In this document: piece after piece, positions 4,902 to 29,284 of the stretch | Layout: each line of letters opens with the position of its first letter | Numbering within the stretch: the stretch's first letter is position 1 | Source of the DNA: Bifidobacterium breve | GTDB taxonomy: Bacteria > Actinomycetota > Thermoleophilia > Solirubrobacterales > Solirubrobacteraceae | Length of the DNA stretch: 33,070 nt | Assembly (NCBI GenBank): GCA_945901565.1 | Contig: CAMDLG010000006.1 | Location: 1-33,070 of the forward strand | Reading direction: 5' to 3' | Made by a program: the position numbers and the translations under genes | Notes under the pieces: model-generated | What the model saw: the letters and a program-made list of their open reading frames with translations, nothing else | Database searches by the model: none | What the model was told of the DNA's origin: nothing

Positions 4902-7900
4902 GTGCATCTGAAGTCGATCAGCCTGAAAGGCTTCAAGTCCTTCCCAGAACGGACCGTGCTCGAGTTTGCGCCCGGCGTGTCTGTAGTCGTTGGGCCGAAT
5001 GGTTCCGGCAAGTCGAACATCACCGATGCCGTCCTCTGGGCGATGGGCGAGCAGTCGCCGCTCGCGGTCCGTGGGCAGAAGATGCAGGATGTGATCTTCG
5101 GAGGTGGCCACGGCGTCAAAGCGCGCTCCTCGGCGGAAGTTGAGCTGATCATCGATAACTCGGACGGAGCAATTGAGATGCCGCTCGGCGAAATCTCGAT
5201 CTTGCGACGGCTTGACCGAAATGGCGAAGGCGAATATCGCCTGAACGGTGCGCGCTGCCGGCTCGTCGATGTTCTCGAGGTGCTCTCCGACACCGGTCTT
5301 GGCAAGGAGATGCACTCGGTCGTCTCGCAGGGTCGCGTCGAATCAATCGTCACGTCAAAGCCGCGCGACCGCCGTCTACTGATTGAGGAAGCAGCCGGGC
5401 TTGGCAAGCACCGCAAACGCCGTCGTCGCGCTCAGATCAAGCTCGATCGCGCGCAGGAGAATCTCGACCGTTGCCTCGACATCGAACGTGAGGCACGATC
5501 CCAGCTGAAGCCACTGAAGCGCCAAGCTGAGGCGGCCGAGTTGCTGGCTCGCGTCGAGCGGCAGACAACGGAGGCTTCATGGGAATTGGTCCGTGATCGT
5601 TCTCGCCGCAGTCGGGCTGCACTTGAGGCCGCCGAAAAAGCCGCTACGGCCGCCCGTGCAACGCGCGACGAGCTGCAGTCCAAGCTAGGGCAGGTTGATC
5701 TGCGCCGCGAGGAGGCCGAGAAGCAACTGGCGGAGCGGAGCGAGCGGCGTGAAGCGATCGCCCACCGCGGCGAACTTGCACGCAGCGCGGCCGGCAAGCT
5801 TGAGATGAGGAGCGAGCGAACGCGAGAGAACGCTCTGGCTCTCGCCGATCGACTGGAGCAGCGTGAAGCCCAGCTCGAGCGGCTGCGCCCCCAAGTAGCT
5901 GCAGACTCTCCGGATCAGAGTGGTGACCAGCGGATCGCTGCACTGGAGGCCGAGCTGGCACGGCTCGACCGCGAGCGAGACGCCGACCTCGACGCCGAGC
6001 TTGCATCACTGACGACGGCAAGTAGTGAAGCACTCGCTGCGAGTGCTGCGGCCGTCGCAACGGTCGCTGAGCTAAGCGACCAGCGCAAGCTTGCCGAGCA
6101 ATCTGCTGAGGGGCTCCGCGCTGAACTGCGTAGCAGCGAACAAGCTGCCGAGCAGGCAGCCCGTGAAGTCGCCGGCATTAGCGCCGAACTGGCTCGCCTC
6201 GATGATTTCTTGCGTGAACATGTCGAGGCACCCGAGGGGCACGCTTCGCTGGCAGGCAGCCTCGAATTGGAGGACGGCTGTGAAGTCGCCGTTGCTGCAG
6301 TGCTTGGCTCGCGTCTGCGCTCCGCAATCGTCGCCGACCTCCCTAGTGGACAGCAGCTGCTGGGGCGCTTTGGAGAAGAAGGCGGCTCGGCTTTGGTGAC
6401 TGCGAGCGGTGACACTTCACGCGCTGCTGGCGCGCCGCCGGCCGGGGCCCGCGCACTCGCGGATTCGGTGATCGGTGGAATCAACGCCGAGCTTGGGCGG
6501 CGACTACTCGCAAACGTTTGGCTCGTCGACTCGCTGGAGTCGCTGACGACAGGTTTTTCCGGAGTCGCCGTCACTGCGCAAGGGCGGGTTTGGGACGCAG
6601 CCACCGGCGAGCTTCGCCAGAGCGCTAAGGGGAGCGGCGAGGATCTGCTCGCGGCTCGGCAGCGGCGCCAGACGCTGGCGGCTGAACATCAGCAGGCTTC
6701 GCAGATTGCCGCTGACGTCACGAGCTCACTGGCATCCCTTGCTCAGAGCTGCGCTGATGCGCAGCAACTGCTCGCAGCAGCCGATGAGAGTTGCCGCACA
6801 GCAGAGCGCGCCGCCGCAGAGGCCAGCGAATCAGCACGCCGAGCCGAGTGGATCATCGAGCAGCGCCGGCAGGCTCCGGAGCAGGGCCCCGGAGCTGTGG
6901 CACGTGCGCAGATGGAGGGTGAGCTCGCTGCCGAGCGACGCGTCGCGGAGCAGGCAGCTACTGAGCGAAAGCAGCGGAAGCAAACCGTCGCCACGCTGGA
7001 GCAGGCAATCGCCTACGAGGTAGGTCTTGTGCCACTGTACAACGCCTTTGAGCAGGCTCTCGCTAGCGCTCAGGAGGCGGTTACTGCGAGGGTTAAGCTC
7101 TTCGAAACCGAGCTTGAGGCTGATCGTGTTGACAACGCCGGTGTGACCGATGACCTACGCGCCTTCGCCCAATCTGGCGCCGAGCTTCAAGGGTCACTGC
7201 GCGAAGCCGGTGAGGAAGTGACCGGAGCTGAGGTAAGCGCTCAGCAGGAGCGCGACCAGCACGCTGAGACCGAAGCCGAGCTGGTCCGCTTGGCAGCTCT
7301 CCTTGGCCTCGAGGCCGAGCCTTCAGAGGAACTGATTGATGATGAGACGATCGCAGCACTCGAACAGCGGATCATCCGACTGGAACGGCGCCGCGAGCAG
7401 ATCGGGCCGGTTAACCCGCTCGCCAAGGCTCAGTATGAAGAGGCTCTTGAACACGTCGAAACGCTCGAACAGCAGCGCACCGATCTCGAATCAGCAATGC
7501 GCGAGCTACGAACGCTGATCCGCGATACCGACCGTCAGATCCGCGAGGCCTTCGAAGAGACATTCGAGGCTGCGGCGAAGAACTTTGAGGAGCTCGCGGC
7601 ACACTGCTTCCCAGGTGGGCGCGGCCGCCTGAGGTTGGTGCGCGAAGAACACACGCCGAAGTCAGTGCTCGGCGGCGGCGATGACCAAGTCGCGGCGCTC
7701 GAGGCGGCCGAGGATCAAGCCAACGCTGAAGCTGAACGCGAAACAGGAGAGCCGGAAGACGACCTCGGCGTTGAGATTGAGATCACACCGGCCGGTAAGT
7801 CAATGAAGCGCTTGACGCTGCTCTCAGGCGGCGAAAAGTCGATGACCGCGATCGCCTTCCTCTTCTCGGTGTTTCTCGCTAAGCCCTGCCCGTTCTACAT

Positions 7901-8117
7901 CCTCGACGAGGTCGAAGCGGCCTTGGACGACCTCAACATCAGCCGCTTCCTTGAGCTTCTGCGCCTCTACAGAGACCGTGCCCAGTTCATCGTTGTCACC
8001 CATCAGCAACGGACGATGGAGGCAGCCGATGCGCTCTACGGGGTATCGATGGGCGGGGATGGCGTCTCGAAGGTGATCAGTCGCCAGTTGCCCGCTGAGG
8101 TCGTTGAGGCAGCCTGA
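4902..8117 (+). CDS. smc: Chromosome segregation ATPase SMC (short coiled-coil arms)
   Basis: SMC dimers condense and segregate chromosomes together with ScpA/ScpB (not in this window). Walker A GPNGSGKS lies at residues 31-38. An N-terminal arm (about 165-440) is followed by a hinge-like domain (about 445-560), a return coil (about 565-900), and the C-terminal head with signature LSGGEKS (about 973) and Walker B YILDEVEAALDD (about 998). GTG 4902 begins MHLKSISLKGFKSF, the canonical SMC start, 1 nt after the rnc stop. At 1071 residues it is about 110 shorter than the usual 1170-1190, the deficit being in the coiled coils; both heads and the hinge are intact. The arms are rich in A, E, R and Q. 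ftsY and ffh, frequent downstream neighbours, are absent. Confidence 0.96.
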   Translation: MHLKSISLKGFKSFPERTVLEFAPGVSVVVGPNGSGKSNITDAVLWAMGEQSPLAVRGQKMQDVIFGGGHGVKARSSAEVELIIDNSDGAIEMPLGEISILRRLDRNGEGEYRLNGARCRLVDVLEVLSDTGLGKEMHSVVSQGRVESIVTSKPRDRRLLIEEAAGLGKHRKRRRRAQIKLDRAQENLDRCLDIEREARSQLKPLKRQAEAAELLARVERQTTEASWELVRDRSRRSRAALEAAEKAATAARATRDELQSKLGQVDLRREEAEKQLAERSERREAIAHRGELARSAAGKLEMRSERTRENALALADRLEQREAQLERLRPQVAADSPDQSGDQRIAALEAELARLDRERDADLDAELASLTTASSEALAASAAAVATVAELSDQRKLAEQSAEGLRAELRSSEQAAEQAAREVAGISAELARLDDFLREHVEAPEGHASLAGSLELEDGCEVAVAAVLGSRLRSAIVADLPSGQQLLGRFGEEGGSALVTASGDTSRAAGAPPAGARALADSVIGGINAELGRRLLANVWLVDSLESLTTGFSGVAVTAQGRVWDAATGELRQSAKGSGEDLLAARQRRQTLAAEHQQASQIAADVTSSLASLAQSCADAQQLLAAADESCRTAERAAAEASESARRAEWIIEQRRQAPEQGPGAVARAQMEGELAAERRVAEQAATERKQRKQTVATLEQAIAYEVGLVPLYNAFEQALASAQEAVTARVKLFETELEADRVDNAGVTDDLRAFAQSGAELQGSLREAGEEVTGAEVSAQQERDQHAETEAELVRLAALLGLEAEPSEELIDDETIAALEQRIIRLERRREQIGPVNPLAKAQYEEALEHVETLEQQRTDLESAMRELRTLIRDTDRQIREAFEETFEAAAKNFEELAAHCFPGGRGRLRLVREEHTPKSVLGGGDDQVAALEAAEDQANAEAERETGEPEDDLGVEIEITPAGKSMKRLTLLSGGEKSMTAIAFLFSVFLAKPCPFYILDEVEAALDDLNISRFLELLRLYRDRAQFIVVTHQQRTMEAADALYGVSMGGDGVSKVISRQLPAEVVEAA

Positions 8118-8121
8118 CCAG

Positions 8122-8127
8122 TAAGCT
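8122..8127 (+). promoter_or_regulatory. -10 element TAAGCT before the NfeD-like gene
   Basis: TANNNT hexamer ending 7 nt before the ATG at 8135, in the 17-nt gap after smc. It fits the leaderless pattern. A second AT-rich match (TATAAG) overlaps it, so the exact hexamer is uncertain. Confidence 0.3.
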
Positions 8128-8134
8128 ATAAGCG

Positions 8135-8599
8135 ATGTCAATTCCGGTTATTTGGCTACTCATTGCGGCCGCCTTGGCAGTCGCCGAGATCGTCACAGAA
8201 AGCTTCTTCTTGGCGCCGCTTGTGGCGGCCTCGGTCGTGATCGCGTTCGGCAACCTGGTCGGTCTTGACACCGTTCTAATCGGCGCACTGGCTTTCTCTG
8301 TCGCCGTGATGACGCTGCTCGTGCTGCGCCCACTGATACGCCGAGGACGAATGGACTTTGCCGTAGGGGGCGCCGAACACGACTTTGTCGTCGGCCAGAT
8401 AGGCGTAGTTGAGGAGCGCGTCGTCAACCAGGAATCGACGGGCGTCATTCAGATTAAAGGCGAGATTTGGACCGCCCGCGCTCAGGATGACTCCCAGACT
8501 TTCGCACCCGGAGCAGAGGTCGAGGTGGTCGGTGTCCGCGGCGCCGTAGCGCTCGTTGAAGAGCGCCGCAATCGATCTCGCCATAGCGTCCCCGCCTAA
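8135..8599 (+). CDS. NfeD-like membrane protein
   Basis: 154 residues: two hydrophobic segments (about 5-25 and 30-68) followed by a soluble beta-rich C-terminal domain (about 85-145) containing VGQIGVVEE and a GEIWTARAQDD segment typical of the NfeD OB-fold. NfeD proteins usually pair with an SPFH/stomatin partner in membrane-domain organisation; no such partner is encoded here, so this is an orphan copy. It sits between smc and rpsP, where ftsY/ffh are often found. Start at ATG 8135 places the first membrane helix directly after the initiator. The family call rests on domain architecture. Confidence 0.8.
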   Translation: MSIPVIWLLIAAALAVAEIVTESFFLAPLVAASVVIAFGNLVGLDTVLIGALAFSVAVMTLLVLRPLIRRGRMDFAVGGAEHDFVVGQIGVVEERVVNQESTGVIQIKGEIWTARAQDDSQTFAPGAEVEVVGVRGAVALVEERRNRSRHSVPA

Positions 8600-8657
8600 T
8601 GGGCGGCCGCAGCGCTACCCTCTGACGCTGACGTTCTGTGCAATTTGAGAGGAACCT

Positions 8658-8903
8658 GTGGCCGTACGACTTAGGCTCACGCGAGTGGGCGGCAAGAAAA
8701 ATCCGATCTGGCGAGTAGTTGTCGCCGACCAACGTTCACCGCGCGACGGTCGCTTCATCGAAGTCGTGGGTCAGTACAACGCCCAGACAAACCCTTCGAC
8801 GATCACGCTCGATGAGGATCGGATCAAGGGCTGGCTCGACAAGGGCGCTCTGCCAACTCCGCAGGTCCGCAAGCTTCTGCACACCCAAGGCATCGCCGTC
8901 TAG
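8658..8903 (+). CDS. rpsP: 30S ribosomal protein S16
   Basis: 81 residues beginning MAVRLRLTRVGGKKNP, the diagnostic S16 N-terminus. Start is GTG 8658, with a good Shine-Dalgarno (GAGAGG) upstream, unlike many genes in this window. It heads the classical rpsP-khpA-rimM-trmD-rplS operon. A TACCCT hexamer about 40 nt upstream could be its -10. S16 binds 16S rRNA in early 30S assembly. Confidence 0.97.
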   Translation: MAVRLRLTRVGGKKNPIWRVVVADQRSPRDGRFIEVVGQYNAQTNPSTITLDEDRIKGWLDKGALPTPQVRKLLHTQGIAV

Positions 8904-8912
8904 GTCGATTCA

Positions 8913-9146
8913 GTGCGTGATCTGCTCGAGTACTTGGCACGCGCGTTAGTTGACGATCCTTCGGCCGTCGCGGTCGAGCAGTTTGATGACGACGATGGAA
9001 CGCTAGTCCTTGAGCTAACTGTCGGTGAGGATGATTACGGCAAAGTGATCGGTCGAGGTGGGCGCACGGCTAACGCACTGCGCACCGTGCTGAAGGCCGC
9101 AGCGGTGCGCGAAGAACGCCGTGTGCTTGTCGACATCGTCGACTGA
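8913..9146 (+). CDS. khpA: KH-domain RNA-binding protein KhpA
   Basis: 77 residues, a single KH domain with the GKVIGRGGRTANALR stretch containing the GxxG RNA-contact loop (around residues 46-52). In Gram-positives KhpA pairs with KhpB/Jag and binds many small RNAs and mRNAs; KhpB is not in the window. Start GTG 8913 gives the usual MRDLLEYLARALVDDP N-terminus. It lies between rpsP and rimM, the conserved position, 9 nt after rpsP and 1 nt before rimM. Confidence 0.95.
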   Translation: MRDLLEYLARALVDDPSAVAVEQFDDDDGTLVLELTVGEDDYGKVIGRGGRTANALRTVLKAAAVREERRVLVDIVD

Positions 9147-9147
9147 C

Positions 9148-9660
9148 GTGGCTGAGTCGCAGGAGCAGTCGCAGGAGCGGTGGCTGCAAGCTGGCCGGAT
9201 CGGTCGGCCGCACGGCCTCGATGGGAGCTTCTACGTCACCCGACCACGGTCAGTGCTGCTCGAGGTCGGCGCAGCGATGCGGGTAGAGCAACAGGACCTG
9301 ATCATTGAACGGCGCGCCGGCACCGATGTAAAGCCGATTATTCGCTTCGCGTCTGTCTCAACCCCTGAAGCCGTCGAGGCGATTCGCGGTCAAGCGCTGT
9401 TCTGCGAATTGGCGCAGGCTCCTTCGCTAGGAGACGACGAGTGGTGGTCAGAAGAACTTGAAGGCTGCTCCGTCGTCGACGGCGACACGGCTATCGGCGC
9501 GGTATCGAGGTTGCTTGTTTTGCCCTCATGCGAAGTCCTCGAGGTGACCCGCAGTGACGGCAGTGAGCTGCTGATCCCGATGGTCCGTGACGCGATCCGC
9601 TCTGTTGACGTCGGCGACCGCAAGATCGACGTTAATTTGGCCTTTGTAGGAGCGAGCTGA
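9148..9660 (+). CDS. rimM: 16S rRNA processing protein RimM
   Basis: 170 residues. RimM assists maturation of the 30S head and binds S19. The N-terminal RimM domain shows AGRIGRPHGLDG; the C-terminal PRC-barrel contains WWSEELEGCSVVD and the closing LLIPMV segment. The start chosen is GTG 9148, 1 nt after the khpA stop. An upstream in-frame ATG at 9121 lies inside khpA and would add nine low-complexity residues. The stop is 4 nt before trmD. It is part of the rpsP-rplS operon. Confidence 0.95.
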   Translation: MAESQEQSQERWLQAGRIGRPHGLDGSFYVTRPRSVLLEVGAAMRVEQQDLIIERRAGTDVKPIIRFASVSTPEAVEAIRGQALFCELAQAPSLGDDEWWSEELEGCSVVDGDTAIGAVSRLLVLPSCEVLEVTRSDGSELLIPMVRDAIRSVDVGDRKIDVNLAFVGAS

Positions 9661-9664
9661 CGCA

Positions 9665-10360
9665 ATGCAACTAGACGTCGTCACGTTGTTCCCGCAGTGG
9701 TTCGAGTGGTTCGCAGAGCAGCGCCACATCTCTAACGCGGTTGCGCAGGGAAATCAGCTGCGCGCGCTGGACCTGCGCGAGCACACGCCGCTCAGCGGTG
9801 GGCAGGTTGACGACACGCCATTTGGCGGGGGAAGCGGGATGGTGCTCCGCGTCGATGTGATGGATGCTGCGCTGCGCGCGTTCTACGGCGTCGACCCGGT
9901 CGAACTGCCTCGCAAGCGCCGCGTCATAGCGTTGACCCCGGGCGGACGCGTCCTCGATGAGGCGCTCGTCAACGAGCTTGCCGCGGAACCTGAGGTGACT
10001 TTGATCTGCGGTCGCTACGAAGGCTTTGATGAACGCATCGTCCAGCACTTCTGCAGCGATGCCGTCTCAATTGGGCGCTACGTGATCGCTGGCGGAGAAT
10101 TGGCCGCGATGGTTGTCTGTGACGCAATTATGCGCAAGCTGCCGGGCGCACTCGGCGACGCTGAGTCCGCCGTCGAAGAGTCATTCAGCGAGGCGCTCGA
10201 GGGCGACCCCGAATACCCGCACTACACGAGGCCCGCTCAGTACCGTGACTGGGGGGTGCCGGAAGTCCTTCTTTCGGGTCATCACGAGGAGATACGGCAG
10301 TGGCGCAGGGCCCGCAGCCGCGAGCGCGGAGCGGCTTCCGGCGACGCTTCGCTATCCTGA
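9665..10360 (+). CDS. trmD: tRNA (guanine-N1)-methyltransferase TrmD, catalytic Asp replaced by Glu
   Basis: TrmD methylates G37 of tRNAs to prevent frameshifting. 231 residues with the SPOUT trefoil knot: MQLDVVTLFPQ start, ICGRYEGFDERI, SIGRYVIAGGELAAM, and the C-terminal PHYTRP and LLSGHHEEI motifs. Two positions differ from the textbook enzyme. The Asp of SIGDY is Arg here (SIGRY), and the catalytic base (Asp169 of the H. influenzae/E. coli enzymes, in the loop EDSF) is Glu (VEESF). The tRNA-binding Arg154 equivalent is kept (AIMRK). Start ATG 9665. The C-terminal tail is Arg/Ser/Gly-rich. Function as TrmD is very likely; activity with Glu as base is inference. Confidence 0.95.
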   Translation: MQLDVVTLFPQWFEWFAEQRHISNAVAQGNQLRALDLREHTPLSGGQVDDTPFGGGSGMVLRVDVMDAALRAFYGVDPVELPRKRRVIALTPGGRVLDEALVNELAAEPEVTLICGRYEGFDERIVQHFCSDAVSIGRYVIAGGELAAMVVCDAIMRKLPGALGDAESAVEESFSEALEGDPEYPHYTRPAQYRDWGVPEVLLSGHHEEIRQWRRARSRERGAASGDASLS

Positions 10361-10431
10361 GCTAACTCGCTAGGCCGCTGCACTCCAGTGCCGCTTGAAG
10401 TTAGGCCCCAAAGATGCGAGTCCCCTTCGCT

Positions 10432-11055
10432 ATGAGCACAGTCATCGACAATCTTGAACGCGCACAATTGCGCCGCGTACCAAATTTTGATCCGGGCGAC
10501 CGAGTCAAAGTCCACTTTCAGGTGGTTGAAGGTGGCCGTCGTCGTACCCAGGTCTTCGAGGGCGTTGTAATCGGCCGCCAGGGCAATGGCGCCCGTGAGA
10601 CATTCATTGTCCGCAAGCAGTCGTTTGGTGTTGGTGTCGAGCGAACCTTTCCGCTCCACTCGCCAAAGATTGAAAAGATTGAGGTCACGTCGAGGGGCGA
10701 TGTGCGCCGCGCCAAGCTTTATTACCTGCGCGACAGGGTCGGCAAGGGTGCGAGGGTTCGCGAGCGTGATTACTTTGGCCCTGAGGAAGAGGTTGCGTCA
10801 GGGCTCGTGCATGAGCCGGCGGTGGCCGCTGAGCAGCCAGATGCCGAGGACGCCGCGCCCGAGGCCGTTGACGAAGTAGCTGGCGAGGACGCTCCGATTG
10901 CAGATCAGCCAGACGCTGAGGCCGCCGAGGAGCAGCCAGAGGCTGAGGCCGCCGAGGAGCAGCCAGAGGCAGCGGAAGATGTGGCGCCAGTAGCCGAGGG
11001 GGATTCTGAGCAGCCGTCCGACGGCAGCGACGAGCCCTCTGGCGACGCGGCGTGA
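10432..11055 (+). CDS. rplS: 50S ribosomal protein L19 with 92-residue acidic tail
   Basis: L19 sits at the subunit interface. Residues 1-115 are a normal L19 ([43 protein letters not shown]). Residues 116-207 are an extra tail of Ala, Glu, Pro, Asp and Gln that contains a 9-residue tandem repeat and almost no basic residues. ATG 10432 gives the family-standard [11 protein letters not shown]; an in-frame ATG at 10414 would add six residues. Neither has a clear Shine-Dalgarno. Its TGA overlaps the lepB GTG. The tail would project from the ribosome; its function is unknown, and codon usage does not differ obviously from the core. Confidence 0.95.
10918..10971 (+). repeat. 27-nt tandem repeat inside the L19 tail
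   Basis: Two head-to-tail 27-nt units (10918-10944 and 10945-10971) differ at a single base. Each encodes [10 protein letters not shown] degenerate related unit (DQPDAE) precedes them. The near-identity at DNA level suggests recent slippage expansion of the acidic tail. Confidence 0.85.
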
Positions 11056-11687
11056 GCGCCGGCACGGAGAAAACGTCGAAATCGACCGGCAGTTCAGTCC
11101 TTGAGCTGATAGTGATTGTTGCTGTGGCGCTCGGCTTAGCGCTGCTGATTCAAGCGCTGCTCGTCAAGCCGTACCGCATCCCTAGCGAGTCGATGGTGCC
11201 GACGCTGCAGGTCGGACAACGCGTTCTTGTGAACCGACTCTCACCACGCTTCGGGGACCCCACTGTTGGTGACATCACCGTCTTCCATCCGCCGGTCGGC
11301 TCCGAGGAGATGCCGCTCAATCAGTGCGGCGAGCGTCCCGCGCCACGAGCTGCCTGTGACAAACCAACGCCGCAAGCCTCCGACGTCAACTTCATTAAGC
11401 GGATAGTCGCCGGCCCGGGCGACACGATTTCGATTCGCGACGGGCGCGTCATCCGCAACGGTAAACCGACCAGCGAGCCGTTCATCAGCGATACCTGCGC
11501 CGATAACCTCGGAGCGCAGTGCACGCTGCCTCGGCCGATCACGATTCCGCCCGATCACTGGTTCATGATGGGCGACAACCGTGGAGAGTCCGACGACAGC
11601 AGGTTCTGGGGACCCGTCCCAACCGCTTGGATCATCGGACCGGCCTTCGCAACCTACTGGCCCCCGAACCGGATCAACCTCTTCTAA
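11052..11687 (+). CDS. lepB: Type I signal peptidase
   Basis: 211 residues. It removes signal peptides from exported preproteins at the outer face of the membrane. A single N-terminal transmembrane helix spans about residues 17-38. The catalytic serine is in PSESMVPTL (Ser47) and the general-base lysine in [12 protein letters not shown] (Lys116). The C-terminal [17 protein letters not shown] box completes the set. GTG 11052 overlaps the rplS stop, indicating translational coupling. An insert of about 25 residues with two Cys between the Ser and Lys boxes ([14 protein letters not shown]) could form an external disulfide. Its 3' end overlaps the only conventional start available to rnhB. Confidence 0.95.
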
Positions 11688-12366
11688 GAAGTCAGGCCCA
11701 AAGCGAGCTAAGCGAAAGAGTCCGGGTCGCGGCTCAAGCGGTGCGAGGCTAATCGCCCACGACCGCTCCGTCGGCGGGCGCTGGGTGGCAGGGGCCGACG
11801 AGGCTGGTCGAGGCTGTCTCGCAGGACCGCTAGTCGCGGCCGCCGTGTTGCTCGACCTCGGTTCGATCGGCGTTGCTGAGGTTCGCGCGCTCGGTGCGTT
11901 GAATGATTCAAAGCAGCACGATCACGCAGCTCGCGAAGCGCTGCTGCCGATCGTGATGCAGACTGCCCAGCGCGTCGTCGTTGTCTCGCGCAGCGCGCGC
12001 GGTATCGACGAGCGTGGACTGCACAAGACAAACCTCGCCGCGCTGCGAGAGTCGCTGATACGCGTCGCCCGTCCGGGCTGCATCTGCCTTATCGACGGTT
12101 TCGAAGTGCCTGCGTTCGAATATGAACAGCGAGCCGTAGTTGGCGGTGACGGACTGAGCGCAGCGATTGCGGCGGCTTCGATCGTCGCGAAGGTGACACG
12201 CGATCGTCTGATGGCGCGTGCCGGCGAGCTTATGCCGGAGTGGGGGTTCGAAGAGCACTTTGGTTACGCCACGCCTGCTCACCGCGAAGCAATCATCGCG
12301 AACGGCGTTTCGCCGATTCACCGCCTCTCGTTCAAGTCCTCTGCCTACGAGCAGATCGCGCTATAG
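11581..12366 (+). CDS. rnhB: Ribonuclease HII (start uncertain, long overlap with lepB)
   Basis: RNase HII cuts RNA in RNA/DNA hybrids and at single ribonucleotides in DNA. The core starts at VAGADEAGRGCLAGPLVAA (catalytic Asp, Glu), with CLIDGFEVP (Asp) and KVTRDRLM (Asp), and ends with the GYATPAHREA/SPIHRLSFK region. The block before the core (LIAHDRSVGGRW) looks like genuine RNase HII N-terminus. The only conventional starts are GTG 11581, which overlaps lepB by 107 bp and adds about 50 low-complexity residues, and GTG 11785, which lies immediately before AGADEAG and would remove that block. I give the longer frame. The true start may be an unusual codon after the lepB stop. The gene is convergent with yraN, 4 nt apart. 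Confidence 0.85.
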   Translation: MESPTTAGSGDPSQPLGSSDRPSQPTGPRTGSTSSKKSGPKRAKRKSPGRGSSGARLIAHDRSVGGRWVAGADEAGRGCLAGPLVAAAVLLDLGSIGVAEVRALGALNDSKQHDHAAREALLPIVMQTAQRVVVVSRSARGIDERGLHKTNLAALRESLIRVARPGCICLIDGFEVPAFEYEQRAVVGGDGLSAAIAAASIVAKVTRDRLMARAGELMPEWGFEEHFGYATPAHREAIIANGVSPIHRLSFKSSAYEQIAL

Positions 12367-12370
12367 CTAG

Positions 12371-12751
12371 TCAAAAGGCATTCTCGATGTGGTCGAGGCA
12401 GATCAGCTTGCCGCGGCCGTCAAGCAGAATCCCAATCGCGTCAAAGCGCACATCCAGGGAATGCGGCCGTTGTTGGACTTCGCTGAGGAATGCCGCGGCG
12501 AGTCGTCGGACTTGTTGACGCTTATGGGCATGCAGGCTTTCCCACGGCGCGTCGAAGTTGCGCGATCGTCGCGTTTTGACCTCAACGAAGACGAGCGTTG
12601 AAGAGCTGTGCACAACGAGATCAATTTCGCCGGATCGAGTTCGGTAGTTGCGCGCGACTAAACGGTAGTCGAGCCGCTCGAGGTGTTCGAGCGCGAGCCG
12701 CTCTCCTGCTCTACCTAAGACGTGACGCGGGTCGGGGGCAGTTGGTCTGAT
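12371..12751 (-). CDS. yraN: YraN/UPF0102 endonuclease-like protein (no standard start codon; probable ATC start)
   Basis: A small predicted nuclease-fold protein, always near rnhB/comM/dprA in actinobacteria. The frame contains the whole family pattern: GRAGERLALEHL, ARNYRTRSGEIDLV, LVFVEVKTRR and the closing RFDAIGI region. The GEID and EVK residues match the restriction-endonuclease-like site. A GTG at 12613 would remove the first half including GEID. Between the upstream in-frame TAG (12763-12761) and 12613 there is no ATG, GTG or TTG. ATC at 12751 gives 126 residues (IRPTAPDPRHVLG), the normal length, and a TAGGTT -10-like hexamer ends 6 nt before it, matching the window's leaderless spacing. 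Family certain; start inferred. Confidence 0.8.
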   Translation of the reverse strand: MRPTAPDPRHVLGRAGERLALEHLERLDYRLVARNYRTRSGEIDLVVHSSSTLVFVEVKTRRSRNFDAPWESLHAHKRQQVRRLAAAFLSEVQQRPHSLDVRFDAIGILLDGRGKLICLDHIENAF

Positions 12752-12821
12752 CGTCGCAACCTAAACCGACCTGAGTGGCGCTAGTGCGCAGCTCTGTTGC
12801 GGTTCAGGAGCACCTCTAATC

Positions 12822-12844
12822 GACTGCGCCCCTAAGTCGCAGTC
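12822..12844. promoter_or_regulatory. Inverted repeat between yraN and comM
   Basis: GACTGCG (12822-12828) and CGCAGTC (12838-12844) form a perfect 7-bp inverted repeat with a 9-nt spacer in the 157-bp divergent gap. It could be an operator for the comM-dprA competence genes or a weak hairpin. No U-run typical of a terminator follows, only TTGT. Three GTCGC direct repeats overlap and follow it. The rest of the gap shows a Shine-Dalgarno-like AAGGT before comM and nothing else I can name. Confidence 0.3.
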
Positions 12845-12908
12845 TTGTCGCAATGTCGCCACGCTAGGGCGCTGACAGTCGACAAAGTTGACCGTAAGGT
12901 CGCCGCCG

Positions 12909-14414
12909 ATGGTGGTCCACGCACTCAGCTTCGCAATAGACGGCCTCGAGCCGCGGCTCGTGACGGTCGAGGCAGACCTGCGTCGCGGTCTGCCGAGCTT
13001 CGCGATCGTCGGGCTGGCCGATCGCGCAGTTGCCGAGGCACGAGAGCGAGTTCGCGCTGCACTCGTCAACTCGGGTTATGAGTTCCCGCTGCGACGGCTG
13101 ACCGTCAACCTAGCTCCGGCCTATCTCAGGAAAGCCGGACCAGGCTTCGACCTTGCAATCGCCTGCGCGATCCTCGCAGCAAGCGGCCAGGTCGACGAGA
13201 ATGCGATCGCTGGCTGCGCGTTCTACGGGGAGCTTTCGCTCGGTGGTCAGCTGCGACGCTGCCGCGGTGTCTTAGCGGTGGCTGAAGGTGCGCGGCGCGC
13301 GGGGCTGAAGAGACTGATTGTCTCCCCAGATAGCGCATCTGAAGCGACGCTTATCGACGGGCTCGACGTTGGGCCCCTAGCCTCGCTCGATCGCCTAGCT
13401 GAGGTGCTGAGCGGCAGGGGAGAGCCGGCAACCGAGAGGCCATCGACACCCCGCCCGGTGTCAGACAGCAGTCAGTTTCCCGACCTCGCCGACGTACGCG
13501 GGCACCGGGCCGCGATAGAGGCGATAACGGTTGCTGCTGCAGGCGGCCATAACCTTCTCCTGAGCGGTCCGCCTGGTACCGGCAAGACGATGCTGGCACG
13601 TCGTTTGGCCGGTCTACTCCCGCCATTGACGTCATGTGAGGCGCTGGAGGTGACTCGCATCCAAAGCATTGTTGGCCTCGGCGTCGAGGGCTTGCTGGCA
13701 ACTGAGCGCCCATTTCGCGCGCCGCACCACTCAATCTCCGCAGCCGGCCTCGTCGGCGGTGGCACTCCACCTTCAGCCGGAGAGGCGACTCTTGCTCATC
13801 GCGGCGTGCTCTTTCTCGACGAGCTGTCGGAGTTCAATCGGGGGGCCTTGGAGGCGCTGCGCCAGCCGCTTGAAGACGGCGAAGTGACGATCGTCCGAGG
13901 ACAGCAGACAGTCACTTTTCCAACACGGTTTGCGTTGGTCGCGGCGACCAATCCCTGCCTCTGTGGACGGAGTGGAGGCGCGTGCCGCTGCAGTGAAGTC
14001 GAGCTGACACGCCATCGTCAGCGGCTCTCGGGTCCTCTGCTCGACCGGCTAGACATCGTCGTCGGCGTTGAACGGCCGTCTTCCGATGCACTAGAGGCTC
14101 CCCCTGTAACCAACACGGCCTCGGTCGCCGCCCGCGTCGAAGCGGCTCGCAATCTGCAACTAGAGCGTGGCGGTCGGCCAAACTCCCAGTTGGTTGCGCG
14201 AGATTTGTTAGCGGCCGTGAACTGCAGCAGGGACGCTGCGCGTGCGCTCACGCAAGCCTATGACCGCGGCGGATTAAGCGCCCGCGGTCGCGATCGTGCG
14301 TTGCGCGTTGCTCGCACTGTCGCCGATCTCGCGGGGGAGGATCAGGTCATGACAGCCGCGTTGGCGCAGGCGCTCGGATACCGCCACGAGAATGAACGGC
14401 TGGGCAATCGATGA
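12909..14414 (+). CDS. comM: YifB/ComM family Mg-chelatase-like AAA+ ATPase
   Basis: ComM is a hexameric helicase promoting branch migration during natural transformation; many non-competent bacteria also carry it. 501 residues. The N-terminal ChlI-like domain (HALSFAIDGLEP, GLPSFAIVGLADRAV, LTVNLAPA) is followed by the AAA+ core with Walker A SGPPGTGKT (about 219-227) and Walker B VLFLDEL (about 300-306), then the cysteine-containing NPCLCGRSGGACRC segment and the C-terminal Mg_chelatase_C domain. ATG 12909 is preceded by an AAGGT Shine-Dalgarno; an in-frame TTG at 12888 is less likely. It overlaps dprA by 4 bp (ATGA), so the two are co-translated. Confidence 0.95.
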   Translation: MVVHALSFAIDGLEPRLVTVEADLRRGLPSFAIVGLADRAVAEARERVRAALVNSGYEFPLRRLTVNLAPAYLRKAGPGFDLAIACAILAASGQVDENAIAGCAFYGELSLGGQLRRCRGVLAVAEGARRAGLKRLIVSPDSASEATLIDGLDVGPLASLDRLAEVLSGRGEPATERPSTPRPVSDSSQFPDLADVRGHRAAIEAITVAAAGGHNLLLSGPPGTGKTMLARRLAGLLPPLTSCEALEVTRIQSIVGLGVEGLLATERPFRAPHHSISAAGLVGGGTPPSAGEATLAHRGVLFLDELSEFNRGALEALRQPLEDGEVTIVRGQQTVTFPTRFALVAATNPCLCGRSGGACRCSEVELTRHRQRLSGPLLDRLDIVVGVERPSSDALEAPPVTNTASVAARVEAARNLQLERGGRPNSQLVARDLLAAVNCSRDAARALTQAYDRGGLSARGRDRALRVARTVADLAGEDQVMTAALAQALGYRHENERLGNR

Positions 14415-15517
14415 TCGAAGCCTGTGATCGCTGCACGCGCCGCAGTTGGCTGGTCGGCCGTCTGGCAGCCAATCTGGAACAGATCCGCGGCAACAGGCCT
14501 GCGGTCCGCGGTGTGCTCGCGCTCAGCGATCGGAAGCTAATCGCCGCGCTAGGCGGCCGCGAGAAGTCGAAGATAACGGCGCACTGGTCGGAGCTCGATC
14601 CGGACAGGCAGCGCCGTGAATGGAGGAGTGGTTCGACTTCGGCAATCTGTCGCCACAATGCGAGTTTCCCGCGGTCGCTCGCCGATCTCCCTGATCCGCC
14701 CGCTGTGCTCCACATCTACGGCGAACTAGCAAGACTCGACGAACTGCTCGCGCCTTCGCCAGTGGTCGCGCTGGTCGGCGCGCGACGGGCATCGGCCGAC
14801 GGTCTCGAGCTCGCACGCGAGCTGGGTCGCACGCTCTCGCTCTGCGGCGTGACGGTCGTCAGCGGCATGGCGCTCGGGATCGACAGCGCCGCGCACGAAG
14901 GTGCGCTTGCTGGTGGCGCGAGAACGATTGCTGTGCTGGCCTGCGGACCGGAGCGCGCCTACCCGGCGCGGCGCAAGCGACTGCACGGCGAGTTGGCAGA
15001 GAGGGGAGTGGTCATCTCCGAGTTGCCACCAGGAATCCCGCCGTTTCGCTGGGCCTTTCCGGCGCGTAACCGGATAATCGCGGCATTGGCGCGGATGGCC
15101 GTCGTTGTCGAAGCAGCAGAGCGCTCGGGCTCGCTGATCACGGCTGAGATCGCCGCCGACCTCGGTCGCTCCGTTGGCGCCGTGCCTGGCCACCCAGGCT
15201 CTTGGCACAGTTGCGGCGCCAACGCGTTGCTGCGTGACGGCGCCCATTTGATTCGCGACGCGCGCGACATCCTCGACGATGCGTTTGGTGTTGAGGCGGC
15301 TCCCAGCGCCGTAAGGAACCGCGAACCGCTGCCGCTGCCGTCTAGCCTGAGTGACGACCAGGCGGCTGTCGTTGCTGCTGTCGAGGCCGGCTTTATGACT
15401 GCGGCGAGCGTCGCGGAATACTGCGGCGGCTCCGTTGAGGTCCTCGGGCCACTGACTGAACTGGAGCTGCTCGGCGTGATCGAGCGACGTGCGGACGGGG
15501 GCTATCGCCGGCTTTAA
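14411..15517 (+). CDS. dprA: DNA-processing protein DprA
   Basis: DprA loads RecA on incoming single-stranded DNA. 368 residues: a helical N-terminal region (1-95), a Rossmann-like core with VALVGARRAS, VSGMALGIDSAAHEGAL, ACGPERAYPARR, ISELPPG, FPARNRIIAAL and EAAERSGSLITAEIA motifs (about 118-265), and a C-terminal winged-helix (SDDQAAVVAAVE to GGYRRL). Starts at ATG 14411 inside the last codons of comM. Together comM-dprA suggest a DNA-uptake capacity or its remnant; the com pilus genes are not here. All core motifs are intact. Confidence 0.95.
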   Translation: MIEACDRCTRRSWLVGRLAANLEQIRGNRPAVRGVLALSDRKLIAALGGREKSKITAHWSELDPDRQRREWRSGSTSAICRHNASFPRSLADLPDPPAVLHIYGELARLDELLAPSPVVALVGARRASADGLELARELGRTLSLCGVTVVSGMALGIDSAAHEGALAGGARTIAVLACGPERAYPARRKRLHGELAERGVVISELPPGIPPFRWAFPARNRIIAALARMAVVVEAAERSGSLITAEIAADLGRSVGAVPGHPGSWHSCGANALLRDGAHLIRDARDILDDAFGVEAAPSAVRNREPLPLPSSLSDDQAAVVAAVEAGFMTAASVAEYCGGSVEVLGPLTELELLGVIERRADGGYRRL

Positions 15518-25743: not shown

Positions 25744-25911
25744 ATGATCTCAACCAATCAGCTCAGTCAGGTCCTGTCAAGCACACCGCGGCGCTGGCAG
25801 ACCGTGAGATCGGGACGGCAGGCCGGCCGCGCTGGCCCGACGCTCGTGTCGAGCACGTCGCTTATGGTCATGCGATGCGCCTTTCGAGGGTTTTCTGTCT
25901 GTCGCTTCTAG
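25744..25911 (+). pseudogene. Truncated efp copy (first 7 codons only)
   Basis: The frame starts MISTNQL exactly as the intact efp at 29599, then diverges completely (SQVLSSTPRR...) and ends at TAG 25909. The gene was cut at about codon 8, marking the left boundary of the inserted or duplicated segment. No EF-P domain remains. Confidence 0.7.
25863..25868 (+). promoter_or_regulatory. -10 element TATGGT of the pentapeptide gene
   Basis: TATGGT ends 6 nt before ATG 25875; no Shine-Dalgarno. Leaderless arrangement. Confidence 0.4.
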
Positions 25912-26096
25912 CGGTTGCGCTGCTCGCTGGCTCAGCGCAGGCCCGCATCGCCAAGGGCTGCGTAATCAAAGCTAAGACGAACTGCGTCGGCGAGAACCTC
26001 AGCGGGCAGAACCTGCGCGGAGCGAAGCTCCAGGGAGCAAAGCTTCACTACTACACCGCACCAAAGAAGAAGGGCGTTGACCCATGGATTTCCTGA
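25875..26096 (+). CDS. Short secreted pentapeptide-repeat protein, probably 3'-truncated
   Basis: 73 residues. A clear Sec signal peptide (MRLSRVFCLSLLAVALLAGSAQA) is followed by two Cys and about three pentapeptide units (ENLSG, QNLRG, AKLQG, AKL). Full pentapeptide-repeat proteins form right-handed beta helices of many more units, so this one ends abruptly. Its final residues (YYTAPKKKGVDPWIS) run into the start of the acyltransferase gene (overlap 26084-26096), where base composition changes. The simplest reading is a gene whose 3' part was lost when the GC-rich module joined. It could still yield a small secreted peptide. Confidence 0.55.
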   Translation: MRLSRVFCLSLLAVALLAGSAQARIAKGCVIKAKTNCVGENLSGQNLRGAKLQGAKLHYYTAPKKKGVDPWIS

Positions 26097-27874
26097 CCGC
26101 CGCCGACGCCGAGCAGCTTGGAGGGGAGTGCTACCGCCTGATCATCGCCCTCGTGCGTCTGAACAAGCGCCCCGATGGCACCGTCCCCTCCTGCGAGGAG
26201 GTTCGCGGGCTGATCGAGGAGCGCGTGCAGCGCTCGCCGCGCTTTCGCCAGTTCCCCTACCAGCCCCCCGGCTACAGCGGCCTGCCGGCCTGGGCCGACT
26301 GCCAGGACTTCGACATCGACGACCACCTGGTCAGGGCCGACACCGACGGCCCGGCCGACCGCCACCAGGTCGAAGAGCTGCTGGCCGAGTGGATGACCAC
26401 CCCGATCGACGAGACGAAGCCGCTGTGGCGCATCCAGTACGTGGAGACCGAGGACGGCGCCGCGCTCCTGTGGAAGTCCGGCCACGCGATCGCCGACGGC
26501 GTGGGCACCCTTGCCCTGCTCGCGATGCTCCTCTTTGACGTAACCGGGGAGCCGGTTCGCGAGGAGGCCGCCCGCTGGGAGCCGGCCCCGCTGCCGACCG
26601 CCGCCGAACTCAAGGAGGCCGCCCGCGCCGCGGGAGCCGAGGAGGAGGTCGTCGTCGAGACCCCGCTGCAGAAGGCGATGGCCGTCTTCTCCAGCCCTGC
26701 CTCGATCAAGGAGGCCGCGGCCGGCACGGCGCAGATGAGCCGTTACCTGCTGCGCAAGGCCCGTACCGACTTCGCACCCAGCCCGCTCTGGGCCGGTAAC
26801 GGGCCGCCGGTCGACCTGCGCACCCTCGAGTACCCGCTGGAGCGCCTCAAGCTCCTGGGCCGCGGGCTAGGCACCGGCGCGACGATGAACGACGTGATCC
26901 TCGGCATGACCGGCGGCGGCCTGCGCCGGTGGTGCCTGGAGAACGGCCACCCGCTCGACGAGCTGGCGGTCCGCGTGCCGGCCGCCACCGGCCGGGGCAG
27001 CAGTACCGGGACGATCGCGCCGATGATCGTTCCCGTGCCGCTTGCGGAGGAGGACCCGGTTCGCCGCGTGAGGATGATCCGCGAGCGCACCGAGGCGGTC
27101 AAGTCCTCCGGTGAGCTGGAGGTGGCGGTGCAGGCGATGGCCCTGGCCCGCGAGGTCCCCGGCCCGGTGGGCGAGCGCCTCAACAACCTGATCTTTGGCA
27201 AGGGGCAGGCCAACGTGGAGATCCACAACGTGCCCGGCCCGTCGCTCGAGCTCTACGTGCTCGGCGCGCCGATCGCCTCCTTACACAGCTTCAGCCTCCC
27301 GCGTCCGCAGGTGGCGATTCAGGTGAACCTCGTCTCGATCGGTGGCCTGGTCACGATCGGGCTGGCCGCCGACACCGCGGTGGTCGGCAGCCTCGACCCG
27401 TTCGTGCGCGGGATGGCCGAGACCGAAGAGGCCCTGGCCCGCGGCGTGGCCAACCTTGACCTCGTTCGCCGCGTGCCGATCTTCGCCCCGCTCGAGGACG
27501 AGCTGCAGGAGGACCTCGCCGCCCGCATGGCCTCACGCGAGGTCGAGGCCGGCGAGGTGCTGGTCAAGCAGGGCGACGCGGCCGACGACTTCTTCCTCAT
27601 CGTCCAGGGCAGCTTCGACACCGAGGTCGACGGCGAGTCGGTCCGCCAGATGGGCCCGGGCGACTCGTTCGGGGAGATTGGCCTCCTGCGCGACACCGAG
27701 CGCACCGCCACGGTCACCGCCGAAGCCGACGGCGTGGTGATGGCCCTCAGCCGCGAGGACTTCCTCAATGCGGTCGCCGCCGACCCGGCGAGCATGGTCG
27801 TGGCCGATGCGATCATCAACACCCGCCTGGGTGACCTGGGCCGCTACCGGGCCTTCAGCGAACCGCCGGGTTGA
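26084..27874 (+). CDS. Wax ester synthase/DGAT-type acyltransferase fused to a cyclic-nucleotide-binding domain
   Basis: 596 residues. Residues 1-455 are a WS/DGAT domain, which esterifies fatty alcohols or diacylglycerol with acyl-CoA to make neutral lipid. The active-site motif is GHAIADG (133-139): the second His and the DG of HHxxxDG are kept and the first His is Gly. PLWR, the NVPGP segment and the C-terminal NLVSIGG stretch are family marks. Residues about 462-596 form a cNMP-binding domain: RRVPIFAPLEDE, EVLVKQGD, and the phosphate-binding cassette FGEIGLLRDTERTATV with the key Glu531 and Arg540. No membrane helix. It overlaps the convergent exporter by 20 bp. Composition is foreign-looking. 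Both domains are clear; allosteric control by cAMP/cGMP is inference. Confidence 0.88.
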   Translation: MDFLTAADAEQLGGECYRLIIALVRLNKRPDGTVPSCEEVRGLIEERVQRSPRFRQFPYQPPGYSGLPAWADCQDFDIDDHLVRADTDGPADRHQVEELLAEWMTTPIDETKPLWRIQYVETEDGAALLWKSGHAIADGVGTLALLAMLLFDVTGEPVREEAARWEPAPLPTAAELKEAARAAGAEEEVVVETPLQKAMAVFSSPASIKEAAAGTAQMSRYLLRKARTDFAPSPLWAGNGPPVDLRTLEYPLERLKLLGRGLGTGATMNDVILGMTGGGLRRWCLENGHPLDELAVRVPAATGRGSSTGTIAPMIVPVPLAEEDPVRRVRMIRERTEAVKSSGELEVAVQAMALAREVPGPVGERLNNLIFGKGQANVEIHNVPGPSLELYVLGAPIASLHSFSLPRPQVAIQVNLVSIGGLVTIGLAADTAVVGSLDPFVRGMAETEEALARGVANLDLVRRVPIFAPLEDELQEDLAARMASREVEAGEVLVKQGDAADDFFLIVQGSFDTEVDGESVRQMGPGDSFGEIGLLRDTERTATVTAEADGVVMALSREDFLNAVAADPASMVVADAIINTRLGDLGRYRAFSEPPG

Positions 27875-29276
27875 CCGGCTGGACGGCCTCTTCGGCCTGC
27901 TCCAGGGCGATGGCGTCCCCGGTGCCGGCGCCCGGGTTCCTGAACATCCTCAGCAGCCAGGCGGCCAGCAGGGCCAGGACGACGATCCCCGCCCCGATCA
28001 GCGAGACCTGCGCAATGCTGTCGGAGAAGACCCGAAGGCCGGTGTCCAGGTCGCCGGCGGGCAGCGTCGAGCTCTCAGCCGGGTGCTGGATCTGCGAGTC
28101 GATCTTTTGCCCCTCGCTGGAGCCGACGCCGGCGGTCAGCGCGCTACGGACCAGTGCGTTCGTGACCGCGCCGAGAAAAAGCGATCCGGCGGCAAGGCCG
28201 GACTGGACCGCGACGGTCATCGTGCCGGAGATCATCCCGCGCTCTACCGGGTCGGCGTCGGTTATGGCCAGCACGTTCACCGGCGTGGAGGCGAGGTTCA
28301 TGCCGACTCCCAGCAGGAACATCGGGATCACGATCTGCGCGTAGGACTCCAGCGTGAAGGCGTAGGCGATGACCGCCAGGCAGGCGGCAACCGTCACGTA
28401 ACCGGCGATCGTCGGCGAACGCCAGCCGACCCTGTCCTTCAGGCGGCCGGAGACCACGCCGCCGATGCCCATTCCCAGGACGCCGGGGAGTAACGCCAGG
28501 CCAGCCCGCAGGGCGTCGTAGCCCAGGACGGTCTGGAGGTAGGTACCGGTGTAGATGAAGATCCAGATCAGGGGGACGTGGATCCAGAAGACTAGGAAGA
28601 GCCCGCTGCGCAGGGAGGGACGCCTGAGCATCTCCCAGCTGATGAACCGCTCCCGGTTGCGGTCGGGTCCCTCGCCGGCGCCGCGCAGGTAGACGTGGCC
28701 GAGAAGGAGGAGCGGTCCGACGATGATCGGGTTGATCAGGAAGATCCAGTTCCAGCTGACTGCGTCGACGATCACGCCGCCGACCAGCGGGCCGATTGCC
28801 ATCCCGACTGCGCCGACGGCGATGTAGACGCCGAAGGCGACGCCGGTCTTGTCCGGGGGCGCCACGCGGGTAACTAGCGCCTGCAGGCAGGGCAAGAGGA
28901 CGGCGGCGCCCAGGCCCTGCACCACGCGGCCACCGATGATCAGCTCGAAGCCACCGGCAAGGCCGCACATCAATGAACCGATCGCGAAGACGACCATGCC
29001 GATGTTCATTCCCCTGATCTGGCCCACCCGGTCCCCGAACATGCCGCCCGGGATCAGCATCAGCGCGAAGACGATCAGGTAGGCGTTGACCACCCACTGG
29101 GCCTGCGACGGCGCCAGGCCCAGGTCGTCCTCGATGGTCGGCAGGGCGACCGAGATGATCGTCAGGTCGATCGAGGTGACCAGGCTCGCGGTGCCCAGCA
29201 CGAGGATCGCAACCTTCCACCCGCGCGAGGGGATACCGGCGCCCCCGCCGCCAGCGGCGGAATCTGTCCCACCCAT
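27855..29276 (-). CDS. MFS exporter, DHA2 (14-TM, EmrB/QacA-like) family
   Basis: 473 residues with about 14 hydrophobic segments. Motifs: the DLTIISVALPTIEDDLG segment at the end of TM1, GDRVGQIRG (motif A, loop 2-3) and GPLVGGVIVDAVSWNWIF (motif C, antiporter signature in TM5 and following). Such proteins expel drugs, lipids or amphiphiles using the proton gradient. ATG 29276 (MGGTDS) is chosen over TTG 29282; TAGTCT ends 8 nt before it. It shares the GC-rich composition of the acyltransferase and meets it tail-to-tail with a 20-bp overlap, so the pair probably arrived together. Whether it exports an acyltransferase product is speculation. Confidence 0.9.
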   Translation of the reverse strand: MGGTDSAAGGGGAGIPSRGWKVAILVLGTASLVTSIDLTIISVALPTIEDDLGLAPSQAQWVVNAYLIVFALMLIPGGMFGDRVGQIRGMNIGMVVFAIGSLMCGLAGGFELIIGGRVVQGLGAAVLLPCLQALVTRVAPPDKTGVAFGVYIAVGAVGMAIGPLVGGVIVDAVSWNWIFLINPIIVGPLLLLGHVYLRGAGEGPDRNRERFISWEMLRRPSLRSGLFLVFWIHVPLIWIFIYTGTYLQTVLGYDALRAGLALLPGVLGMGIGGVVSGRLKDRVGWRSPTIAGYVTVAACLAVIAYAFTLESYAQIVIPMFLLGVGMNLASTPVNVLAITDADPVERGMISGTMTVAVQSGLAAGSLFLGAVTNALVRSALTAGVGSSEGQKIDSQIQHPAESSTLPAGDLDTGLRVFSDSIAQVSLIGAGIVVLALLAAWLLRMFRNPGAGTGDAIALEQAEEAVQPVNPAVR

Positions 29277-29284
29277 GGGCAAAG

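Follow-up and report, generated by a model that had tools for sequence, protein, structure and literature searches.

The window, by which we mean the whole stretch of 33,070 nucleotides analysed here, carries a gene for a predicted acyltransferase of the wax ester synthase/DGAT (WS/DGAT) family fused to a cyclic-nucleotide-binding domain (CNB). The gene, its parts and its 3' neighbour are as follows.

26084..27874, + strand: CNB-fused WS/DGAT-family acyltransferase, 596 aa (ORF, Pfam, orthologues)
26156..26899, + strand: WS_DGAT_cat (PF03007), residues 25-272 (Pfam, 97.4 bits, cut-off 23.6)
26483..26500, + strand: HxxxDG active-site motif HAIADG, residues 134-139 (motif alignment)
27014..27421, + strand: WS_DGAT_C (PF06974, formerly DUF1298), residues 311-446 (Pfam, 74.8 bits, cut-off 20.7)
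27395..27472, + strand: one predicted helix (residues 438-463) that continues from the acyltransferase half into that of the CNB (AlphaFold2 model)
27536..27781, + strand: cNMP_binding (PF00027; the CNB), residues 485-566 (Pfam, 70 bits, cut-off 27.5)
27668..27715, + strand: phosphate-binding cassette FGEIGLLRDTERTATV, residues 529-544, with Glu531 and Arg540 (alignment)
27855..29282, - strand: DHA2-type MFS exporter gene, convergent with the fused gene, the last 20 nt of which it overlaps

The fused gene is a single unbroken ATG-to-TGA frame of 596 residues. An in-frame TGA lies 6 nt (two codons) 5' of the ATG; therefore, a more upstream start of the protein is impossible, and the start residue is common to the protein and its closest orthologues. 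A preliminary description of this DNA had placed a WS/DGAT domain and a complete cNMP-binding domain in one frame, and had proposed a domain search with WES_acyltransf, DUF1298 and cNMP_binding profiles. The architecture is borne out, as all three domains (PF03007, PF06974 and PF00027) exceed their Pfam gathering scores within the one 596-residue frame, and FGE (529-531) and Arg540 stand where that description had put them.

The same domain order was found at full length in nine of the 232 genomes of the order, at identities of 59-70%, and six loci with the fused architecture are present in GTDB contigs. The carriers are some freshwater actinobacteria and fall into two genera: five of the 17 genomes of the window's genus, and four genomes of g33, which belongs to another family. 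Contig 5 of the genome from which the window comes holds a further copy, 62% identical to the window copy, so that the survey of the architecture across genomes that had been suggested at the outset yields carriers both among relatives and within one genome. A sequencing-error or assembly fusion of adjacent genes, against which the preliminary description had cautioned, is ruled out by the nine genomes and by the two copies in one genome. Substitutions between copies amount to 0.43 at codon position 3 vs 0.22 and 0.14 at the other two, an excess of the kind that selection on a coding gene produces. An apparent second copy in one genome (G002, locus L013) has its first 60 residues identical to the other copy and sits at a contig end, and is probably assembly redundancy. 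No independent fusions were found in a phylum sample of 396 genomes, where scoring was applied to three candidates from each genome and would overlook any other domain order; all other matches end by model position 476 of 609.

In an AlphaFold2 model of the full-length protein built from 21 sequences (pLDDT 79.9, pTM 0.79), the first 457 residues superpose on the WS/DGAT of Marinobacter (6chj_A; Z 33.1, rmsd 2.8 over 357) and on AbWSD1 of Acinetobacter (7nxg; Z 30.0), and NRPS condensation domains and PapA5 follow at about Z 17-20, well under the WS/DGAT matches. The active-site sequence [SG]HA[IL]ADG is found in all ten fused proteins, in which the second His, the Asp and the Gly are kept; the first His of HHxxxDG is absent, its place being taken by Gly in the window copy (SGHAIADG) and by Ser or Gly in the orthologues. 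Against TIGR02946, the curated WS/DGAT subfamily, the protein scores 219 bits and does not reach the cut-off of 309.95, and by these profile scores it is a divergent lineage of the WS/DGAT fold family that lies outside TIGR02946. Since this cut-off is missed and the first His is lost, the acyl acceptor cannot be assumed. The earlier assignment as a WS/DGAT acyltransferase thus stands with regard to the Pfam domains and the fold, but not with regard to the curated subfamily or a complete HHxxxDG. The Marinobacter and Acinetobacter enzymes share both Pfam domains, the fold and HxxxDG with the fused protein; nevertheless, they are without a CNB and their HHxxxDG is complete. Identity between the present clade and ordinary WS/DGATs, which also occur in the window's genome, is about 30%.

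The fold matches listed for the full-length model were filled by the acyltransferase, with none to a CNB, and the CNB was therefore folded separately. Modelled alone (pLDDT 80.6), it superposes on CNB-B of PKG I (5l0n; Z 20.4, rmsd 1.2 over 118) and on the CNB of MlotiK1 (1u12; Z 20.2). The preliminary description had named a structural model lacking the cNMP pocket as evidence against its proposal; the model of the CNB superposes on cAMP/cGMP-binding domains at Z about 20. The phosphate-binding cassette reads FGE[IV][AG][LM]LR[DE][TS]ERTATV in all ten fused proteins; its Glu and Arg are invariant in these ten and in nine of nine CNB-patatins (see below), and the Gly is likewise kept in all. 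Through the predicted helix 438-463, movement of the CNB upon ligand binding could be passed on to the acyltransferase. In NCBIfam, the best partial match of the CNB part is a Pat model (NF058543, 49 bits vs 460), over the CNB stretch only, and a Pfam search of the fused protein gave no GNAT match. For the CNB, the family 2B encapsulin shell ranks among the better NCBIfam hits, and an encapsulin CNB occurs among the fold matches. CNB folds without cyclic-nucleotide binding exist, as in family 2B encapsulins and Trypanosoma PKA-R.

The second copy on contig 5 (locus L014) lies in a cluster with chemosensory genes, which is arranged as follows.

14155-15237, - strand: REC-class III cyclase
12160-14124, - strand: Cache-MCP
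about 11742-12158, - strand: CheW
9649-11742, - strand: CheA with REC
7950-9662, + strand: CNB-patatin phospholipase (CNB, then patatin)
6067-7890, - strand: second copy of the CNB-WS/DGAT
beyond the CNB-WS/DGAT: CysNC and CysD (+ strand), then a sulfotransferase, an MFS exporter and a second sulfotransferase

The cyclase, MCP, CheW and CheA-REC genes all point the same way and are at most about 30 nt apart, and about 59 nt separate the divergently oriented CNB-patatin and CNB-WS/DGAT genes. The four-gene operon is conserved (L014 9649-15237, L070, L071, L072 and L079) and is an apparent chemosensory system with the cyclase as its output. The stretch from cyclase to WS/DGAT is found on a single contig in six genomes (G000 contig 5, G004, G010, G089, G104 and G115) and is split by contig ends in three; the REC-linked class III cyclase is about 6-8 kb from the cluster copy of the fusion on the same contig, likewise in six genomes. 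According to Pfam, CheA (Hpt, dimerisation, ATPase and CheW-like domains), CheW, MCP and a REC-bearing output occur in one cluster, which by this predicted content is a chemosensory pathway with an alternative, non-motility output. CheR and CheB were not seen within the clusters examined. The catalytic signatures of CheA (HSLKG, N-box and GxG), those of the cyclase (FTDLRGFT, MGDG and YTALGDTTNTAARLEG), the MCP hairpin, and GGGGARG, GxSxG and DGG of the patatin are all present, with a few of these patterns unmatched in single genomes by a strict motif search. We take the cyclase set with YTALGDTTNTAARLEG to be that of class IIIb, and because of this signature cAMP is the likelier product. The CNB of the patatin retains the Gly-Glu and Arg (VGELALVTGD[PV]RSASV). 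This partner presumably resembles the CNB-patatin phospholipases of the Rv2565 and NTE types; in contrast to those, it is divergently paired here with a CNB-acyltransferase and linked to cyclase and Che genes. CysD/CysNC occur in the cluster in one genus only. In g33, a sulfotransferase gene lies 12-16 nt downstream of the WS/DGAT gene, and in G115 another lies 10 nt before it. At L079 (7571-11062), a sulfotransferase, the CNB-WS/DGAT and a sulfotransferase form a tight operon with gaps of 10-16 nt, an arrangement that suggests a sulfated lipid product. A cytochrome P450 gene, assigned by eye, is found beside the cyclase in the g1 clusters (L071 13717-14985; L014 15280 onward).

The same nine of the 232 genomes, several of which are incomplete MAGs, carry the CNB-WS/DGAT, the CNB-patatin (at least 62% identity) and the MCP (at least 47%), and the next-best patatins elsewhere in the order reach 40% or less. 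The chance of two nine-genome sets coinciding would be about 2e-16 if the genomes were independent, which, belonging to two genera, they are not, and the figure is no guide; because the carriers fall into two genera, the co-occurrence represents few independent events. This shared distribution shows that the predicted fusion, patatin and MCP genes travel or are lost as a unit. Among the distant CNB-patatins (about 38-40%), tandem pairs occur at G079:C28:31771-36788 and G191:C154:2304-7271. The window's genome has no MCP besides that of the cluster, a point in favour of a dedicated role other than motility. Further cyclases besides that of the cluster are present in this genome, and most relatives have a CRP-sized CNB protein; the messenger is thus probably shared. 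The idea of a genome without CRP, in which the lipid enzymes would be the sole cNMP targets, was dropped in view of these CRP-sized proteins and of the completeness of G000, which is only 87%.

The best explanation, to which we assign a probability of about 0.6, is that the fused protein is a cyclic-nucleotide-gated acyltransferase of the WS/DGAT fold, and that the cluster copy of the family ends a chemosensory pathway together with the CNB-patatin. Architecture, intact motifs, clustering, co-occurrence, selection and predicted folds all enter this explanation as direct observations. The presence of a REC-linked class III cyclase near the cluster copy in six genomes makes the cyclic-nucleotide switch more plausible. 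The reaction steps may be pictured as follows, where the ligand, the direction of regulation, the phosphotransfer to the cyclase and the substrates are what we infer. A ligand would be sensed by the Cache-MCP, and CheW/CheA would, as an assumed step, bring about phosphorylation of the REC domain on the class III cyclase, which would then produce a cyclic nucleotide, most likely cAMP. Binding of the nucleotide at the C-terminal CNB would move the B/C helices and, through the joining helix, change the activity of the acyltransferase. The nucleotide would thereby set the balance between acyl transfer by the CNB-WS/DGAT and acyl-ester cleavage by the CNB-patatin. With sulfotransferases and an MFS exporter at hand, the setting of the pathway would be envelope- or sulfo-lipid metabolism. 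The window copy would be a second, dispersed gene of the family, with its CNB nearly unchanged and its acyltransferase half diverged. In its full form, this amounts to a receptor-to-lipid pathway, in which the array acts on the REC-cyclase and the resulting nucleotide directly, without transcription, gates the opposing CNB-WS/DGAT and CNB-patatin to make or remodel an exported, possibly sulfated lipid, the window containing an additional diverged copy; we put this forward tentatively, at slightly less than even odds.

The nature of the product separates the best explanation from its own sub-case, in which cyclic nucleotides would control the synthesis of storage wax esters or triacylglycerols and the CNB-patatin would be the matching hydrolase. 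The WS/DGAT domains and fold agree with such a role, as does a synthesis/hydrolysis pair bearing the same sensor domain; nevertheless, we regard it as rather unlikely, given the missed TIGR02946 cut-off, the lost first His, the ordinary WS/DGATs coexisting in the genome, and a cluster copy near sulfotransferases, an exporter and, in one genus, CysD/CysNC, none of which storage lipids need. Taken on gene content, a sulfated or otherwise exported lipid appears as likely a product as a storage lipid. Sensing itself is denied by a second reading, according to which the CNB is a structural or oligomerisation module on an ordinary constitutive WS/DGAT-type acyltransferase. Such a role would fit the existence of CNB folds without a proven ligand and the encapsulin matches in both NCBIfam and the fold search, but it is made unlikely by the cassette Glu and Arg, invariant in 10/10 fused proteins and 9/9 CNB-patatins, by a CNB that is more conserved than the acyltransferase half, and by the physical linkage of a class III cyclase to the cluster copy. 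A Pycsar-like anti-phage system, with a cyclase making cyclic pyrimidine nucleotides, a membrane-damaging CNB-patatin effector and the WS/DGAT as an accessory, is very improbable, because the PADLOC matches that point to it (PycTIR to the CNBs, PycC models to the cyclase) span the shared CNB or cyclase domain only, the cyclase bears a REC domain and directly adjoins the genes for MCP, CheW and CheA, an effector of the TIR or transmembrane type is lacking (neither CNB protein has a TIR domain), and the cluster, which has biosynthetic neighbours, is conserved as a trait of the lineage.

In bacteria, cyclic nucleotides are known above all for transcriptional control through the CRP family, and the direct gating of enzymes has rarely been shown (KATmt). 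KATmt and MsKat (Rv0998 and MSMEG_5458) are cAMP-activated Pat acetyltransferases with an N-terminal CNB (PMC5861322). As an actinobacterial acyl-transfer enzyme fused to a CNB, KATmt resembles the protein described here, but it is a GNAT protein acetyltransferase with the CNB at its N-terminus, whereas the present fusion is a predicted lipid acyltransferase of the WS/DGAT fold with the CNB at its C-terminus. The Pil-Chp system of Pseudomonas aeruginosa raises cAMP through CyaB (PMC12632253) and is likewise a chemosensory array controlling an adenylate cyclase, as proposed for the cluster; it differs in that PilG is a separate response regulator and Vfr the output, whereas the cyclase of the cluster carries its own REC domain and enzymes are the predicted outputs. 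Encystment of Rhodospirillum centenum involves a Che-like cascade and cGMP/CgrA (PMC4681086), both of which steer a developmental change; however, the output there is CRP-type transcription, and no CNB-fused lipid enzymes are described. The sulfolipid-1 pathway of M. tuberculosis (Stf0, PapA2, PapA1, Chp1 and MmpL8; PMC9989471) similarly brings together a sulfotransferase, an acyltransferase of the same fold superfamily (PapA5, Z 17.6) and an exporter, but it has no CNB or Che control and its exporter is of the MmpL type, whereas the cluster has an MFS exporter and no polyketide synthase was seen in it. A literature search, which covered few subscription papers, returned nothing joining wax ester synthase or DGAT with cNMP-binding domains, and the papers that it gave on CRP and lipid production do not, by title and abstract, concern a fused enzyme. 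We know of no description of a combined system of Che proteins, a cyclase and CNB-lipid enzymes, and the cluster suggests an undescribed route from an outside signal through a cyclic nucleotide to lipid chemistry. One cluster supplies a candidate signal source, the messenger enzyme and two opposing lipid effectors, and direct cyclic-nucleotide control of bacterial lipid acyl transfer becomes testable with a few purified proteins. If true, the chemosensory output would be lipid chemistry, neither movement nor transcription.

The cluster itself being on another contig, an exporter gene is the only counterpart of its genes that adjoins the window copy. The MFS gene of the window and the exporter gene of the chemosensory-lipid cluster are homologues (58-67%), the identity being 65-67% to g33 vs 60% to contig 5, and the fused protein of the window is nearest to the g33 fusions (70%), among which it is nested in the tree (99/99). 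The ilvD gene of the window shares 94-97% identity with that of several congeners, as opposed to 66-68% with g33, and the closeness to its own genus rules out a foreign or mis-binned contig. The affinity of the window fusion to g33 suggests transfer or an old paralogue, and the fusion and the MFS gene probably moved or were duplicated as a pair. Where the other nine proteins are invariant, the window copy departs from them at 43 of 229 columns in the acyltransferase half vs 2 of 64 in the CNB (Fisher p 0.0013). It seems to have retained the sensor and altered the catalyst, as an enzyme would on taking up a new substrate while obeying the original signal, and such a change of substrate is probable; alternatively, the acyltransferase half may be under relaxed selection. 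A promoter scan of the fused-gene region gave nothing useful. On the 5' side, a 73-residue frame (25875-26096, + strand) shares the first 13 nt of the fused gene, to which it is possibly translationally coupled; its start resembles a signal peptide, and one stretch of it (NLSGQNLRGAKLQGAKL) is pentapeptide-like.
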